Assembly: GCA_029261855.1 (NCBI GenBank) | Contig: JAJDAN010000016.1 | Span: 1 to 42,677, forward strand | Length of the DNA stretch: 42,677 nucleotides | Source of the DNA: Deltaproteobacteria bacterium | Lineage (GTDB): Bacteria; Myxococcota_A; UBA9160; UBA4427 | Reading direction: 5' to 3' | Part shown: positions 13,387-31,184 of the stretch, piece after piece | Layout: each line of letters opens with the position of its first letter | Position numbering within the stretch: position 1 is the stretch's first letter | Made by a program: the position numbers and the translations under genes | Notes under the pieces: generated by a model | Database searches by the model: none | The model's input: the letters and a program-made list of their open reading frames with translations, nothing else | What the model was told of the DNA's origin: nothing

Positions 13387-13426
13387 CTTCGATTCTTCCG
13401 GGGTGTGCGGGACGGGGTTGCAGGCG

Positions 13427-13503
13427 TGGTACGCCGGGAGGGATTCGAACCCCCGACCCTCAGGTTCGAAGCCTGATGCTCTATCCAGCTGAGCTACCGG
13501 CGC
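13427..13503 (-). tRNA. tRNA-Arg (anticodon TCG)
   Basis: A full 77-nt cloverleaf including an encoded CCA (complement of 13427-13429). The acceptor GCGCCGG pairs with CCGGCGT (one G-U pair at the base), the D arm is GCTC...GAGC, the anticodon stem is TCAGG/CCTGA with loop CTTCGAA, and the T arm carries TTCGAAT. The anticodon TCG reads CGA and other CGN arginine codons. A partial direct repeat of its 3' half lies 6.7 kb downstream of its 3' end at 6727. Confidence 0.97.
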
Positions 13504-23995: not shown

Positions 23996-25156
23996 TCAGT
24001 CCTTTGCCAGCAGCAGCGCGCTGCCCGGTGCGTAGCCGGGGCCGGACACCACGAGCGACAGCTCGGCGTCCGCGACCTGGCAGGTCGACTCGCCACGCAG
24101 CTGGCGCGTGGCCTCGACGATCAGCTCGAAGCCGTGGATGTACGCCTCGCCGATGTTGCCCCCGCTGGTGTTGAACGGGAAGCGAGCGTCCGGGCCTTCG
24201 AGTGCGCCGTTCGACACGAAGGCCTCGACCTCGTCGGGCTTGCAGAAGCCCATCTCGCACAGCGAGATGAGCACCGGGCCGGTGAAGTTCTCGTAGAACT
24301 GCGCGACGTCGACATCGTCGGGGCCTACGCCTGCGCGTTCCCACAAGGTCTCGCCGACGTTGTCGTAGTACATGCGACCGAGCCAACGCGGCTGGAAGGC
24401 GGAAGACCCGTACATGGGGCCGAGCCCCTGGGCGGCGGCCAGGATGCGGGCGGGCTTGCTGCGCAAGTCGCGCGCACGTTCGGCGCGGGACACGACGACC
24501 GCCGACGCTCCGTCGTTTTCCGGGCAGCAGTCGTAGAGATGGAAGGGTTCGACGATCCAGCGCGACGCGTGGTACTTCTCGCGGGTGAGCGGCTTGCCGT
24601 AGCGCGTGGCGCGCGGGTTGCGCTGGGCATTCGCGTAGCAGGCCATCGAGATGTCACACAGGGCTTCCTGGGAGATGCCGTGGTCGTGCATGAAGCGCGC
24701 GCTGTGGAGCGCGCATTCCTGGGCGGGAGAAAGCAGGCCGTAGGGGGCCTTCCACGCCATGTCGCCGTCCATGGTGCGCCCGCTGCCGCGCGCCTGGCCG
24801 AAGCGGCCGAACTGCCCCTGGGCCAGTGCCCGGAAGGCCACCACGTTTTCCGCGTAGCCGGCGCTGACCGCGGCGTCCGCCATCTGCACCGCCGCAGCCG
24901 CGTTGTTGCCGCCCCCGGCCCAGGACTGGGAGGACCAGCGCAGATTCTTGATGCCGAGCGCGCGGGCCAGTCGCAGCGGGTCGTTGCGCTGGTCGTTGTA
25001 CGAGACGAAGCCGTCGATGTCCGCGATGTCGATGCCGGCGTCTGCGGCGGCGTTCCGGATCGCGGTGCAGCAAAGCTGGAACTCGGTCTGGGTCGCGCGT
25101 CCGCGGACAAAGTAGTCGGACTCGCCGACGCCGGCGATGATGGCCTGCTTCTGCAT
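23996..25156 (-). CDS. thiolase-fold protein of the SCP-x/Ltp2 type lacking the catalytic Cys
   Basis: A 386-residue lipid-transfer-protein-like thiolase. The N-terminus (AIIAGVGESDYF) and C-terminus fit the family. Where thiolases have the nucleophile loop C-x-S-G there is SWAGGGNNAAAAVQMADAAV, with no Cys. Where thiolases have GGxxxxGHPxGA it has NTSGGNIGEAYIHGFEL, with Tyr instead of the His. Ltp2-type retro-aldolases, which cleave steroid side-chain beta-hydroxyacyl-CoA esters, show this Tyr and lack the Cys. So a retro-aldol rather than thiolytic reaction is more likely, together with the DUF35 partner 4 bp downstream. The start at 25156 lies 4 bp after the stop of the H1-like gene and has a weak Shine-Dalgarno sequence. 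Confidence 0.85.
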   Translation of the reverse strand: MQKQAIIAGVGESDYFVRGRATQTEFQLCCTAIRNAAADAGIDIADIDGFVSYNDQRNDPLRLARALGIKNLRWSSQSWAGGGNNAAAAVQMADAAVSAGYAENVVAFRALAQGQFGRFGQARGSGRTMDGDMAWKAPYGLLSPAQECALHSARFMHDHGISQEALCDISMACYANAQRNPRATRYGKPLTREKYHASRWIVEPFHLYDCCPENDGASAVVVSRAERARDLRSKPARILAAAQGLGPMYGSSAFQPRWLGRMYYDNVGETLWERAGVGPDDVDVAQFYENFTGPVLISLCEMGFCKPDEVEAFVSNGALEGPDARFPFNTSGGNIGEAYIHGFELIVEATRQLRGESTCQVADAELSLVVSGPGYAPGSALLLAKD

Positions 25157-25160
25157 GGGA

Positions 25161-25691
25161 TTAGAACCTTCGGTTGCGACTGCGACCGGGGATCACGCCG
25201 TCGTGGCTGATCTCGAGTGCCTTTTCGGCGACCGCGCGGGCGGCTTCGGTGGCGTCCTTGAAGGACTCCGCTTCGAGCTGCTGACGGGCTTCGCGAAACT
25301 CGTCCGGGCGGAAGGATGTCGCCACCCGCGGCCGCAGGCCGAACACGTGGCCCATGTTGACGTCGAGCGCCGAGAAACCGCCTTTCTTGGCTGCGGGCTT
25401 CGCGGGCTGGGCTGCGGGCTTCGTTGCCGGCTTCGTTGCCGCGGTCGTCTTGGCTGCAGCCGACTTCGCCGGGCTCTTCTTTCCCGAACTCTTCTTTTCC
25501 GAGCTCTTCTTTCCCGAGCTCTTCTTTCCCGAGCTCTTCTTGCCCGCAGTCTTCTTCGCCGGGCTCTTCTTGGCGGCGGCAGCCTTCTTCGTGGCCGGCT
25601 TCTTCTTCGCCGCGGCCTTCTTGGCGGGTTTCTTCGCGGCCTTCGAGGCCTTCGACTTGGATGCGGACGCGCTCTTCTTCTTGGCTGTCAT
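25161..25691 (-). CDS. histone-H1-like Lys/Ala-rich protein with a separate C-terminal domain
   Basis: A 176-residue protein in two parts. Residues 1-105 are Lys/Ala/Ser/Pro repeats of the eukaryotic-H1/AlgP type, including tandem KKSSG units that are also repeated in the DNA (25480-25550). Such tails bind DNA without sequence specificity. Residues ~106-176 are of normal composition and begin FSALDVNMGHVFGLRPRVAT, then 'SFRPDEFREARQQL', and end in a basic tail. I do not recognise this domain. The ATG at 25691 is the only sensible start. The stop is 4 bp before the thiolase-fold gene, so they should be co-transcribed, an unusual pairing of a chromatin-like protein with lipid metabolism. DNA binding is inferred from composition. 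Confidence 0.75.
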   Translation of the reverse strand: MTAKKKSASASKSKASKAAKKPAKKAAAKKKPATKKAAAAKKSPAKKTAGKKSSGKKSSGKKSSEKKSSGKKSPAKSAAAKTTAATKPATKPAAQPAKPAAKKGGFSALDVNMGHVFGLRPRVATSFRPDEFREARQQLEAESFKDATEAARAVAEKALEISHDGVIPGRSRNRRF

Positions 25692-25703
25692 AGCCGGCAG
25701 CTT

Positions 25704-25730
25704 AGCCGTTTTTCGCGCGCGGGAACGGCT
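25704..25730 (-). other. stem-loop between the HEAT-repeat and H1-like genes
   Basis: AGCCGTT at 25704-25710 and AACGGCT at 25724-25730 form a 7-bp stem around a 13-nt GC-rich loop, within the 45-bp gap and just upstream of the H1-like start codon. It could attenuate readthrough or affect mRNA stability. It is not followed by a T run. Confidence 0.35.
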
Positions 25731-25736
25731 CCGGCT

Positions 25737-27056
25737 TCAATGAGCGTGGGTGTCCAGGTCGCCCCGGGCGAGATCCGCAAGCTTGCGCAGTGCCGGGTCC
25801 GGGTGATCGCGGCCGATCTCGGCCAGGGCACGTCTTCCGCCGGGACCGGCGAGGGAAAGCCCCGAGATCGCCGCGTGCCTGGCGTCCCGGGACGTCGCGC
25901 AGCACGCGGGGTAACGGCCATAGACGATCGCGCGCAGGTCGGGAACCGCGCGGTCGCCGAAGGACGCGGCCAGGCGGGCTGCGGTTCCACGCACCGCCGG
26001 GACCGCGTCGGCGAGAGAGGCCAGGGTGTCGGGCAGGCTGGCCATCCCGAGCACGGCAACCAGCTGCTCGAGTGCGGCCGCGCGCAGCAGCGGGTCCGGG
26101 TCGTCCACCGCAAGCCGGCGCAGCAGCGCGGCATCTCCGGCCGTGGCGGTTCGCACCGCCACCTGCCGATACGCGGGGTCGTCCTGGGCGACGAGCCAGG
26201 CCCGGTCGTCGCTGGTGATCCCCGTCGGAGAGACCCGGGAAAGGGCGTCGAAGACGCGCGCGGGTGCCCGCCCGCCGGCCCCTCCATCGGTCGCGGCGGA
26301 CGCGGCGTCCCGCAGCCGCCCCGCCAGCGAATCCGTGTGCACGGCATCGAAGACCGGCAGCAGCGCGTCGACCAGCGCTGGCTCCCCGTGTTCTCGCAGC
26401 AGACCGCGCACCAGGGCTTGCTCGGAATCGGGGCCGAGCACCGAGGACAGACCTTCGACGGACGAGAGCCGGTCGGCAGCCGCCACGGCCAACGCGGGCT
26501 GCGCGGTCGCGACCAGGGTCGCCAGGAAGCGCACCCCGGCGGCACCGTCTCGCGCTTCCGGGGCGATGGCGAGGTAGTGGTGCAGTACGTCGATGCTGCC
26601 GAGCGCCGGGTCATGGACGAAGGCGCTTCCGCCCAGTGCGAGCCCGAGGGTCTGCCGGCGCTTGCTCGGTTCGGGGATCCGCGTTCGCCAGATCGACGCG
26701 CTACCCAGGGGTTCCAGCACGACCAGGGCGCGACCGCTCTCGTCGAACCGCGGCGGTCGCCCGCTGGCCAGCTCCTCCCAGGCGAAGCGCAAGGGCGTGC
26801 CTTCGTCGAAGTCGCCGGCACGGGCGCCGACGACGCGCTCGACCCAGATGCGCGCGCTGTAGCCGTGGGCATCCAGGCGCTGGACCTCGTTGATGCGGCC
26901 GACCACGGTCAGCGCGTCTGCTTCCATGGCTTCGACGAGACCCCGGGCGGCGGGCGCGGGCTCCCCGGCGCTCGCCACCTGGGCAAGCTGCGCGAGCGCG
27001 AGCCCGGAGACCGCTGCCGCGAACCACGGCAGCGCGCGACTTCGGCTTCCGGTCAC
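25737..27056 (-). CDS. exported HEAT-repeat-like protein
   Basis: A 439-residue protein with a Sec signal peptide (WFAAAVSGLALAQLAQVASA, cleavage near residue 30). The C-terminal half has several HEAT-like helical pairs: 'QVAVRTATAGDAALLRRLAVDD', 'PLLRAAALEQLVAVLGM', 'AVRGTAARLAASFGDRAVPDL' and 'GGRRALAEIGRDHPDPALRKL'. The N-terminal half has a beta-rich region with VVGRINEVQRLDAHGYSARI, which resembles domains of exported proteins but which I cannot name. The GTG start overlaps the stop of the CehA-like gene as GTGA, so the two are translationally coupled. HEAT repeats suggest a periplasmic scaffold. Catalytic residues are not evident. Confidence 0.7.
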   Translation of the reverse strand: MTGSRSRALPWFAAAVSGLALAQLAQVASAGEPAPAARGLVEAMEADALTVVGRINEVQRLDAHGYSARIWVERVVGARAGDFDEGTPLRFAWEELASGRPPRFDESGRALVVLEPLGSASIWRTRIPEPSKRRQTLGLALGGSAFVHDPALGSIDVLHHYLAIAPEARDGAAGVRFLATLVATAQPALAVAAADRLSSVEGLSSVLGPDSEQALVRGLLREHGEPALVDALLPVFDAVHTDSLAGRLRDAASAATDGGAGGRAPARVFDALSRVSPTGITSDDRAWLVAQDDPAYRQVAVRTATAGDAALLRRLAVDDPDPLLRAAALEQLVAVLGMASLPDTLASLADAVPAVRGTAARLAASFGDRAVPDLRAIVYGRYPACCATSRDARHAAISGLSLAGPGGRRALAEIGRDHPDPALRKLADLARGDLDTHAH

Positions 27057-30000
27057 GGTCCGGGCTGGAAGCCCGGCTCGCCGTCCACATCGGCGTAGAG
27101 TGCGTTGGTCGCGCCCAGCGCCATCACGCCGCTCTCGCCCAGGTTGCCGTCGACCAGATCGCCGACGACCTGGTTGGTCGTGCGGTCGATGTTCTCCGGG
27201 AAGACCGGGAACATGGGCGCCGACACGCCGTCGCTGCCTTTGACGATCACCACGAACCAGGTGTCTTCAGCGAGCCCCGTGAACGGGACGATGAGCTGCC
27301 GGGTCTCGAGCCGCGTCGCGCCTGTGAGTCCGGGCTCGACCACCACGTTGTCGACCGCGAAGTCGACGCCGGCGGTCAGCACCAGACTGGGGATCGCGCT
27401 GTACATGTACGGGTCTTCGGGCACCGTCTCGGCGTTGGCGTAGATCTCGATGCGGTCGTATTCGGCCCATTCCGGCGCCTGGATGTCGATCTCGAGGTCG
27501 ACGTCGCCCGTGGTGCTGACCAGCTGGGTCGAGCCGTTGCGCGTGAGATCGGCGACGCCGCCGCTGCCGTCGCGCGCATGCAGTCTCGTCTGCACGTAGA
27601 CGCCCTGTCCGCCGACGGCGCGTCCGGCCAACACCGCTTCCCCGACCTCGCGCGTGTCGAACCATTTCGGCGCGTCGGTGCTCGCTGCGACCCAGGTGCG
27701 TGCGCCGCTGCTGTTGAGATTGAAGAACTTGTGGGTGTCCGTGTCGGCGATGAAGGTGATCGGGATGCCCTGGTTCAAATGGTTGAACCAGATCCCGATG
27801 CGTTCGCCGAGGAAGTTCCGCTGGGACCCGCGGCTCTCGCCGTTCCACAGCTCGAGGGCGTCGAAGGGATGGAAGAGGTTGCCCGTGGCCGGCAGTCGCA
27901 GGGCCGCGCGCGCGCTGGCGTCGAGGCCGTCCTGGATGGGCGACAAGGCGGTGTCGATGGCCAGCGGCGCGAAGTGGCTGTCGATGTGATTCACCTGCAC
28001 GGCGGTCTCGGGCAGCGATTGCGCGCCCGTGGTCGCCAGCGCGTAGATCTCCGCCGGGGTCGCGTTGAGCGCGCCGTACTGCGGGAAGTCCATGCCCGCC
28101 GGCGCTGCCAGACCCCAGTCCGTCGACCCGCCGGACGGCACGCTCGGGTCGACGGTGAACGGGTAGCCGTTGAAGTGTCCGTAGTCGAAGCTCGTGATCT
28201 CTTCGCCCACCGTCGAAGTCAGGAACTTCGACATGCCCAGCTCGGCGATGCGGGGCTTGAGGTCCGTGTGGACGCCGTGATCGGTCATGATGACGTTGTC
28301 CACGCCTTCGCCGGCGAACTGCATCACGCGGTCGCTGTGGCTGACCCGCGAGTCCGCCGAGTGGATGCCGTGGACGTGGAAGTCCGACGACACGAACCCC
28401 GGCGTCTCGACGACCCGGGCGATGCGCGCAATGACCTGGGTCTGCTCGCCGCCGACCAGGGTGCGGGGCTCGTGGAACAGGGAGTACTCGGGCCCGCGCG
28501 ATACGTAGATCTCGTACTCGCCGGGCTCAACCACGAGGCTCACCTCGCCCTTGGCATCCGCATAGCCCGCGGCGGCGACGCCGAAGGGGCGTGAGTCTGT
28601 CGGGTCGCGGAAGAGGCCCACGTCGCCGATCGACAAGCCGAACAGGTTGCCGCCGGGGATGATCGGTTCGGGACTGGGGTCGAAGCCGACGACCGTCACC
28701 CGGGCCGGGATCGCCTGGAAGTCTTCGTCGCGGACCTTCACCTTGAGGACGGCGGACTCGGGGAGATCGACGGTGGGCAGGACGACCGTCTCGTCGGCGG
28801 CCACGGAGAAGGGATGCACCGGCGGCTCGGAGGCCCCGCCTTCGTAGAGGTGCCCCGTCAGCGCCGCCGCCATCGCGTAGCTGTCGCCGGCGGGAGTGGG
28901 CGGCACGGTGCCCGCATAGCAACCGTCCGCGTCAGTGCTGAACAGGGTGTGGACGTCGTCGACGGTATCCACGTCGAGGGTGCCGATGACGACCCGGGCA
29001 CCCTGCGCCGGCACGCCCGCGACAGTGACGCAGCCCTCGACGTGCCCGACCGCCGACCCGGAGATATCCGCCGCCATGTCCACGGCATTCGCCCCCGACC
29101 CGTCGCCGACGCCGAGGTAGCGGGTGTAGCTGCGCGTCGCGCCGGCCTCGACGAGGAAGGGCGAAGGCAGCCCCAGGATCGCCTGGAGCACACCGATGCT
29201 CTGGAGCGACAGGGTCACGCCCGAGGTGTTGAGGAAGCTCGGCGCGAACGGCCCCGGGATGGGGATGGTCGCGAAGGAATAGTCGACACCCGCCGCCTCC
29301 CCGTAACCAATCCACGCGAGCGAGCCGAGGTTGGCGGTGAGGATCGCCCCCGGACCCTGCCCCGGCGTGAAGAAGTTCTCGACCTCGCCACCCGCGTTGA
29401 TCCAGTCGCCGATGAGCAGGTTCAAGGGCGTCCCGCCGAGATTCGTCACGGCGGTGTCCATGCGTACGCGTGTCGAGAAGGGGACGAGGCTGTAGGTGGT
29501 GCAGGCCTCGATCGGAAGGTCGTTGTCGTCGGCGTGGGCCGGGACCATGACGCCCGGGATGCCCGAGATCTGGCTCGAGGGGTTGATGAAGTCGAGCAGG
29601 TCATCGGGACCGCAGCTGCGGATCGCCGCGGGGTTGCCGTCTGCTCCGTCGTTCACGATCTCGACGATCTGGGGATTGACCACCGTCTCGACGTCCAGGG
29701 CCGGCGCGATCTCGATGAAGTTGTCGAGCCCGGGGTGGCCCACCAGTTCGAGGTCGATCAGGTTTCCACCGAAGGCCCCGACGCTGTACATGTCGCGCTG
29801 GGGCGCGTCCTGGATGATGAAGCGAGCCGTGCAGTTCGAAAGCAGGTAGTCGCCGACCCGGCTGTGGGCGAGGGGACCGGTGATGAGCTGGGACTCGTCG
29901 CTGATGCGCTCGGCGCGCGCAGGAGGCTCGTACTGGAACGCGCGTGTCGCCGTGACGAGCGCGCCGCCGGGGAAGCTGCGGCCGTGCACCTCGAGCAGAT

Positions 30001-30262
30001 TGTCTGCGGCGAGTACGCCCAGGGCCCCGGCGCGTCGCCCTCCGTCGTCTTCCTTCTCGAAGGCGAGGGTCTCGCCATTGAGGACGACTTCGATGCTGCC
30101 GTGCTTGAACGATCCCTCCAGCACGAAGGCAACGGATTCCATGCACTCGCCGACCACCGTGCCGCTGGGCTCGACGATTTCGATGCGGCTTTCTCCCGGA
30201 CAGCGGAAGGCGAGGGTGGCGACGGCGACGACGAGAACGGAGACAGCAAGGCTTCGAGTCAT
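27053..30262 (-). CDS. large exported CehA/McbA-family metallohydrolase (PHP domain)
   Basis: A 1,069-residue protein with a signal peptide (SLAVSVLVVAVATLAF). The first ~480 residues are beta-rich domains of no clear family, followed by carboxypeptidase-regulatory-like modules (e.g. 'KGEVSLVVEPGEYEIYVSRG'). The catalytic PHP-type domain (about 640-900) shows DFHVHGIHSADSR (metal-binding HxH), MTDHGVHTD, 'VGEEITSFDYGHFNGYPF' and 'FIADTDTHKFFNLNSSGAR'. CehA and McbA hydrolyse carbaryl-type carbamate esters, but the family is broad and no substrate is implied here. It is followed by the coupled HEAT-repeat gene and preceded by the SirB1-like gene (79 bp). Probably periplasmic or outside the cell. 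Confidence 0.8.
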   Translation of the reverse strand: MTRSLAVSVLVVAVATLAFRCPGESRIEIVEPSGTVVGECMESVAFVLEGSFKHGSIEVVLNGETLAFEKEDDGGRRAGALGVLAADNLLEVHGRSFPGGALVTATRAFQYEPPARAERISDESQLITGPLAHSRVGDYLLSNCTARFIIQDAPQRDMYSVGAFGGNLIDLELVGHPGLDNFIEIAPALDVETVVNPQIVEIVNDGADGNPAAIRSCGPDDLLDFINPSSQISGIPGVMVPAHADDNDLPIEACTTYSLVPFSTRVRMDTAVTNLGGTPLNLLIGDWINAGGEVENFFTPGQGPGAILTANLGSLAWIGYGEAAGVDYSFATIPIPGPFAPSFLNTSGVTLSLQSIGVLQAILGLPSPFLVEAGATRSYTRYLGVGDGSGANAVDMAADISGSAVGHVEGCVTVAGVPAQGARVVIGTLDVDTVDDVHTLFSTDADGCYAGTVPPTPAGDSYAMAAALTGHLYEGGASEPPVHPFSVAADETVVLPTVDLPESAVLKVKVRDEDFQAIPARVTVVGFDPSPEPIIPGGNLFGLSIGDVGLFRDPTDSRPFGVAAAGYADAKGEVSLVVEPGEYEIYVSRGPEYSLFHEPRTLVGGEQTQVIARIARVVETPGFVSSDFHVHGIHSADSRVSHSDRVMQFAGEGVDNVIMTDHGVHTDLKPRIAELGMSKFLTSTVGEEITSFDYGHFNGYPFTVDPSVPSGGSTDWGLAAPAGMDFPQYGALNATPAEIYALATTGAQSLPETAVQVNHIDSHFAPLAIDTALSPIQDGLDASARAALRLPATGNLFHPFDALELWNGESRGSQRNFLGERIGIWFNHLNQGIPITFIADTDTHKFFNLNSSGARTWVAASTDAPKWFDTREVGEAVLAGRAVGGQGVYVQTRLHARDGSGGVADLTRNGSTQLVSTTGDVDLEIDIQAPEWAEYDRIEIYANAETVPEDPYMYSAIPSLVLTAGVDFAVDNVVVEPGLTGATRLETRQLIVPFTGLAEDTWFVVIVKGSDGVSAPMFPVFPENIDRTTNQVVGDLVDGNLGESGVMALGATNALYADVDGEPGFQPGP

Positions 30263-30341: not shown

Positions 30342-31184
30342 TCAGTGCAGGGGCGGCAGATCCGCGCGCAGCTGCGCGACCAGGCGACGGATTGCGTCGA
30401 TGTCCTCGGCGTCGGACGCGGGGGCTCCCGTGCCCTCGGGGTGGGCGGCGAGGTAGCGCTCCAGGTCTGCCAGCGCCGGGTGCGGACACTCGAGTGCGTG
30501 GTACATCAGTCCGCGGTCGCGCAGCTCCCGGGCGGCGTCCGGAAACAGCAGCAGACTGCGGTCGCAGCAGGCCAGCGCCAGCTCGAACTCGCGCTTTCCG
30601 GCGTAGATCGATTTCAAGTTGCCGAGCATTCGCAGCAGGATGTGCTTCTTCGGCACGGGCGCAAACAGCGCAGGCGTCAGCTCGGCGTCGTCCCCGAGAG
30701 CGGCGCGGAGTCGGACGCGGCATTCGTTCGCTGACGCGAGGCGCCCTTCGAAGGCGTCCACGACGAGCGGCTCGGCGCCGACGCGCACCAGGAAGTGCCC
30801 GGGGAAGTTCACTCCCGCCGCATCGAGCCCGAGCCTGCGCGCCACTTCCATGTACAGCACGCCCAGGCTGATGGGGATGCCGGTCTTCCGGTCGATCACC
30901 TGGTGGAGGAAGCTGTTGCGTGGGTCGTAGTAGTCGTCGCGGGCGCCGTGGAAGCCGTGCACACCGAACAGCTCTCGGTTCAGTACCCGCACCTGATCCG
31001 CGACAGACTCCGCGAGCGCGAAGTTCGGCCGCACCGCGTCGGCGAGTGCGTCGAGGCGAACGAGATAGCCCGGCACGTCGAGTCCTTCGCAGGACTCGGC
31101 CGCCAGCCACAGGGCCGCCGCGCCGAGGTCGATGTCCTCGTCCCGCGCCCTTGCGATCTCACTGAAATGGTCTCGAGGGTTCAC
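30342..31184 (-). CDS. SirB1/transglutaminase-like plus TPR family protein
   Basis: A 280-residue cytoplasmic protein of the SirB1 (Transglut_core2) family. The core reads FHGARDDYYDPRNSFLHQVI, then 'RKTGIPISLGVLYMEVARRLG' and 'GVNFPGHFLVRVG', all conserved blocks. The canonical catalytic Cys position after 'GIPISL' is Gly, so it is probably non-catalytic, as usual in this family. The C-terminus has TPR-like helices ('RMLGNLKSIYAGKREFELAL', 'RELRDRGLMYHALECPHPAL'). The start lies 16 bp after the stop of the M28 gene. The function of SirB1 proteins is poorly defined; the E. coli homologue was linked to regulation of other genes. Confidence 0.82.
   Translation of the reverse strand: MNPRDHFSEIARARDEDIDLGAAALWLAAESCEGLDVPGYLVRLDALADAVRPNFALAESVADQVRVLNRELFGVHGFHGARDDYYDPRNSFLHQVIDRKTGIPISLGVLYMEVARRLGLDAAGVNFPGHFLVRVGAEPLVVDAFEGRLASANECRVRLRAALGDDAELTPALFAPVPKKHILLRMLGNLKSIYAGKREFELALACCDRSLLLFPDAARELRDRGLMYHALECPHPALADLERYLAAHPEGTGAPASDAEDIDAIRRLVAQLRADLPPLH

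Follow-up and report, generated by a model that had tools for sequence, protein, structure and literature searches.

The gene at 25161..25691 (minus strand) of the window, by which we mean the whole 42,677-nucleotide stretch of DNA that was analysed, encodes a 176-residue protein in which a histone H1-like tail precedes a small conserved domain. We propose that this protein is a lineage-restricted nucleoid-associated protein that coats or bridges the chromosome, and place the probability of this reading at about 0.6. In our view the tail most plausibly tethers the protein to nucleic acids in general, and specificity lies in the domain. The tether role is assigned because of the precedents of FrzCD and AlgP and the wide use of such tails in the class to which this genome belongs, and a tether tail joined to a specific domain leads us to propose a nucleoid-associated protein.

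The open reading frame begins with ATG, and homologues share the same two-part layout. Residues 1-104 (25380..25691, minus strand) form a Lys/Ala/Ser tail with a net charge of +35, in which a single residue is acidic and large hydrophobic residues are lacking beyond Met1. Tandem Repeats Finder detected a 15-bp repeat of about 7 copies at 25469..25571 (minus strand) that codes for KKSSG-type units, in agreement with the tandem KKSSG tail described in the initial annotation. The tail was classed as H1-like on its composition and on weak matches below the curated cut-offs, with scores of 22.5 bits for HC2 (PF07382; cut-off 40) and 36.7 bits for hist_H1_lk_Burk (NF038053; cut-off 80). The protein is H1-like in a loose sense, a long Lys/Ala-rich tail of net charge +8 to +44 with at most one large hydrophobic residue, that applied to 22 of 23 members of the family. 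It shares the Lys/Ala tail composition of the HC2 and hist_H1_lk_Burk proteins, but scores far below their cut-offs and carries a C-terminal domain that both matches miss. That domain, the normally composed residues 105-176 beginning FSALDVNMGHVFGLRPRVAT, was also correctly recognised at the outset, and it is the domain, not the tail, that is conserved. Alignments and AlphaFold2 models of two homologues placed its conserved core at residues 105-164 (25200..25379, minus strand), with helices predicted at residues 113-117, 129-138 and 147-164. A short basic end with a net charge of +4 follows (residues 165-176; 25164..25199, minus strand), modelled at low confidence (pLDDT 53-58).

With the domain alone as query, 25 of the 90 class genomes searched gave a match, and the 287 other Myxococcota genomes gave none. 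A scan of the genomes of 84,980 species returned 15 loci, mostly on contigs already found in the class search and nearly all in metagenome-assembled genomes titled Myxococcota, Myxococcales or Deltaproteobacteria. The domain is thus restricted so far to one uncultured lineage of Myxococcota. Viral or plasmid carriage was considered and rejected, as no copy of the domain was found among the viral contigs of IMG/VR or the plasmids searched. Within the class the family spans 16 genera, and grouping in the gene tree follows family in part and does not demand transfer. Carrier genomes were larger than those of non-carriers (median 5.3 versus 4.35 Mb, p = 0.0003, uncorrected for relatedness). The gene is absent from approximately 70% of class genomes and is therefore not essential to the lineage.

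Identity in the domain was 79% with the sister species and 39-60% across the class, with the consensus VNxGHVFALRPRVxTSFRxxDFxxAKxxLxDExYxxxxEAARAVAEKALELT and invariant residues V7, P17, F23, A31, L35 and A46 (domain numbering). Between pairs of relatives dN was 0.05-0.30 and dS 0.48-2.7, and the dN/dS ratio in the domain, about 0.06-0.25, indicated purifying selection. Since dN lies far below dS, the frame is translated and the domain is under selection. The domain was C-terminal and the tail N-terminal in all full-length members. Tails ranged from 27 to 161 residues, were almost devoid of acidic or hydrophobic residues and, one genome (G074) apart, carried net charges of +8 to +44; with the same exception, a Lys/Ala tail preceded the domain in every carrier with a readable full gene. 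The G074 member (L088:2065-2367, minus strand), from a 2.3-Mb genome, retains the domain and the promoter box described below, and has a 28-residue tail of net charge 0. The charged tail was either lost in this member or never present, and the tail is therefore not always needed.

The initial annotation held that bacterial H1-like proteins usually consist of the tail alone, a view that needs correction. Outside the class such tails are found on other domains in AlgP, PhaF and FrzCD (PMC9239181, PMC5716589), and sequence searches of the class genomes for further H1-like tails showed them fused widely, to DEAD-box helicases, DksA, ribosomal protein L17, a FYDLN protein and an EF-Tu-D2-like protein. 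In three helicases the Lys/Ala tail lies ahead of the helicase domain (L109, L135 and L113, the last in this genome at G000:C89:383546-383929, minus strand). Loci L111, L115, L116, L121, L125 and L132 carry tails on DksA, L17 (where the tail is C-terminal), the EF-Tu-D2-like and FYDLN proteins and one unassigned protein. Nearly pure (KKATR)n proteins of about 100-150 residues, H1-like and with no other domain, were also seen (L106, L110, L127). Across these proteins, the H1-like tail acts as a modular add-on.

The description of the domain as unrecognised still holds. Comparison with Pfam, NCBIfam and PHROGs gave only scattered matches at E > 0.01, and sequence searches of the PDB gave nothing significant. 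The 14-3-3 proteins appeared there at E ~0.003 over a 35-residue helical hairpin; this match covers half of the domain, many of its listings are near-identical 14-3-3 entries, and we judged it a chance helical match and rejected it. No Pfam HU match was found for HU or HupS, with one member reaching HU_rel at E = 0.1. AlphaFold2 models of the window protein and a 54%-identical homologue agreed in their three-helix secondary structure (mean pLDDT 83.5 and 82.4, pTM 0.68 and 0.67, as monomers): the predicted helices span domain residues 9-13, 25-34 and 43-60, and residues 2-3 form a short bridge with 39-40. A histone fold, with its short-long-short helices, was rejected, as the longest predicted helix here is the last and the histone families went unmatched. 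Foldseek gave no significant match in the PDB or BFVD (best E 4.6 and 0.98), and the best VIA-align scores, Z 3.6 for phi29 p16.7 and 3.1 for the DnaT ssDNA-binding domain, were too weak to use. The lack of a match in the PDB or BFVD does not prove a new fold.

We also considered whether the domain could be a diverged ribbon-helix-helix (RHH) DNA-binding domain, which would make the protein an H1-tailed analogue of CdbA. This nucleoid protein of Myxococcus binds c-di-GMP and is a 67-residue RHH tetramer, reported from Myxococcales only (PMC7156744). HHalign matched the domain to 18 RHH proteins of the same class over 40 columns, in the expected register, with the strand RVxTSF followed by a helix and then by an S-x-E-A-A-R-A helix, and the score of 14.4 exceeded the column-shuffle mean of 9.0 (SD 1.8). 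The distance from the end of the strand to the second helix is 20 residues, compared with 19 in CdbA (PMC7156744), and the strand region is unpaired in the monomer model, as expected of an RHH strand. However, HHalign assigned a probability of 2.8%, and among 150 shuffles the highest score, 14.9, exceeded the real one. None of 23 members matched a Pfam RHH family at E values up to 1, no RHH chain of the PDB was among the Foldseek matches listed for either model, and the single phage RHH protein in the fold search had an E value of 0.98 and a TM-score of 0.28. In the model, moreover, a helix precedes the strand, and the helices are separated by a loop of 8 residues. Thus, while the sequence register suggests RHH kinship, we regard membership of this fold as rather unlikely. 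The likeness to CdbA and CdbB of Myxococcus xanthus is that of another small, in this case putative, nucleoid protein of Myxococcota with a weak profile similarity in a strand-helix-helix register; CdbA is tail-less, and here a tail is present and RHH membership of the domain is only suggested.

The gene appears to have a promoter of its own. A putative -10 box of the leaderless type, TAAGCT, lies 7 nt before the ATG (25699..25704, minus strand), and in 22 of 23 members TAnnnT, usually as GCTAnnnT, precedes the start codon by 6-9 nt; of all ATGs at the same loci, 1.0% have such a box. The binomial significance of this enrichment is overstated, the members being related, yet they cover 16 genera. 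A stricter pattern that included the first codons was found in carriers only, where 9 matches were to family members and 2, from two carriers, to other genes. A scan for the sigma-70 consensus detected no promoter, and the box emerged only on comparison of homologues. A TANNNT box adjoining the open reading frame marks leaderless genes in Deinococcus (PMC12340547), and the conserved motif here points to leaderless transcription from the gene's own promoter. The same TAnnnT-ATG layout was seen in the sister species at another locus (L093; G039:C310:1994-2022, minus strand), ahead of a 360-residue ParB-like reading (NGRHRLAAAKVLGL) with a MAAKK tail; this protein had no Pfam match at 1e-4.

The neighbourhood was examined for a conserved partner. 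As noted at the outset, a gap of 4 bp (25157-25160) separates the gene from a downstream Ltp2/thiolase-like gene (23996..25156, minus strand); the same arrangement occurs in the sister species and in no other carrier. Flanking genes differed in nearly every genus and included a beta-lactamase-family hydrolase, glutathione peroxidase, amidohydrolase, STT3/AglB-like protein, amine oxidase, HlyD, an RRM protein and a luciferase-like protein, and no operon partner was conserved beyond the genus among the carriers' loci. Because the neighbours vary outside the genus, the Ltp2 link is local, and the Ltp2-like gene is probably outside the function of the protein. A genomic context unrelated between genera, together with a promoter box of its own, is as would be expected for a stand-alone chromosomal protein. 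Upstream in the window, two minus-strand genes at 25737-30262, encoding a HEAT-like protein of 439 residues and a protein of 1069 residues without a Pfam match, separate the H1-tailed gene from a SirB1-like transglutaminase/TPR gene (30342-31184). In the sister species a SirB1-like reading seemingly lies directly upstream of the H1-tailed gene, which suggests insertion or loss. Elsewhere in the window, ARAGORN called a tRNA-Thr (plus strand) and a tRNA-Arg (minus strand) on the same bases (13399-13503); Rfam backs the minus-strand tRNA, and the tRNA-Thr call is probably an antisense artefact.

The initial annotation had suggested that the domain anchors a nucleoid protein or a polyester or lipid granule protein. 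The first of these fits the tail, and the second did not withstand the searches for PhaC and WS/DGAT and the comparison of neighbours. A granule role has its precedents, since PhaM links polyhydroxyalkanoate (PHA) granules to DNA (PMC3556143), as does PhaF (PMC3574117), and PhaF has an AlgP-like tail (PMC9239181). In the window, genes of lipid-metabolism type adjoin the H1-tailed gene, and WS/DGAT-like readings lie 3-5 kb from it in two genomes of one genus. However, the PHA synthase PhaC (PF07167) was absent from this genome, in which our protein differs from PhaM and PhaF with their hosts, and from 24 of 25 carriers; PhaC_N was found in 2 of 89 class genomes, one of them a carrier. The wax-ester synthase WS/DGAT (PF03007), present in 80 of 89 class genomes, occurred in 24 of 25 carriers and 56 of 64 non-carriers at equal density per Mb (p = 0.32), and the carrier without a match was G074. 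Homologues showed no conserved linkage to WS/DGAT genes, and gene neighbours were not conserved between genera. A role as a PHA or wax-ester/triacylglycerol granule protein is therefore very improbable.

For the nucleoid-associated protein that we favour, the polycationic, disordered N-terminal tail would bind DNA or other nucleic acid by charge, without sequence specificity, and the helical C-terminal domain of about 60 residues would supply the specific function. If the domain self-associates, one protein could bridge or cluster DNA. We rank self-association of the domain first, with somewhat less than half of the total probability, and docking of a partner on the nucleoid second, with a smaller share of the same total. 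Transcription would start at the gene's own promoter and yield a leaderless mRNA. Close parallels come from FrzCD of Myxococcus, also of the Myxococcota, whose N-terminal, positively charged, histone-like tail binds the nucleoid without sequence specificity and tethers the protein to DNA (PMC5716589), and from AlgP (AlgR3) of Pseudomonas, a DNA binder with an H1-like Lys/Ala tail, the KPAA repeats of which bind DNA, and a small alpha-helical domain (PMC9239181). FrzCD is a chemoreceptor, and the chemoreceptor domain is absent from the protein described here. In AlgP the tail is C-terminal, behind a 124-residue N-terminal domain (PMC9239181), unlike the N-terminal tail of all full-length members here, and the helical domain here has 60 residues; the two domains are likened by description.

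The same precedents, AlgP with polyphosphate and FrzCD with chemosensory clusters (PMC9239181, PMC5716589), could also be read as a nucleoid tether for some non-polyester cargo, such as a polyphosphate granule or a signalling or other complex. The conserved motif GHVFALRPR, superfluous for the packaging of DNA by charge alone, would fit such a role. Against it, no conserved neighbour among the carriers hints at a cargo, and CHAD proteins, which associate with polyphosphate granules, showed no association with the family (7 of 25 carriers, 22 of 64 non-carriers) and are absent from this genome. We consider a cargo tether unlikely, and continue to favour a nucleoid-associated protein.

That an undescribed self-associating or DNA-binding fold joined to an H1-like tail constitutes a new class of chromosome-organising protein, found in one class of Myxococcota only, is a tentative proposal that we hold to be possible but improbable. 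The protein would add an unnamed domain family to the few bacterial H1-like proteins that combine their tail with another folded part. Its lineage also attaches H1-like tails, as modular additions, to many nucleic-acid proteins. Should the domain self-associate or be RHH-like, comparison with eukaryotic H1, in which a globular part is combined with a tail, and with CdbA would be a natural one.
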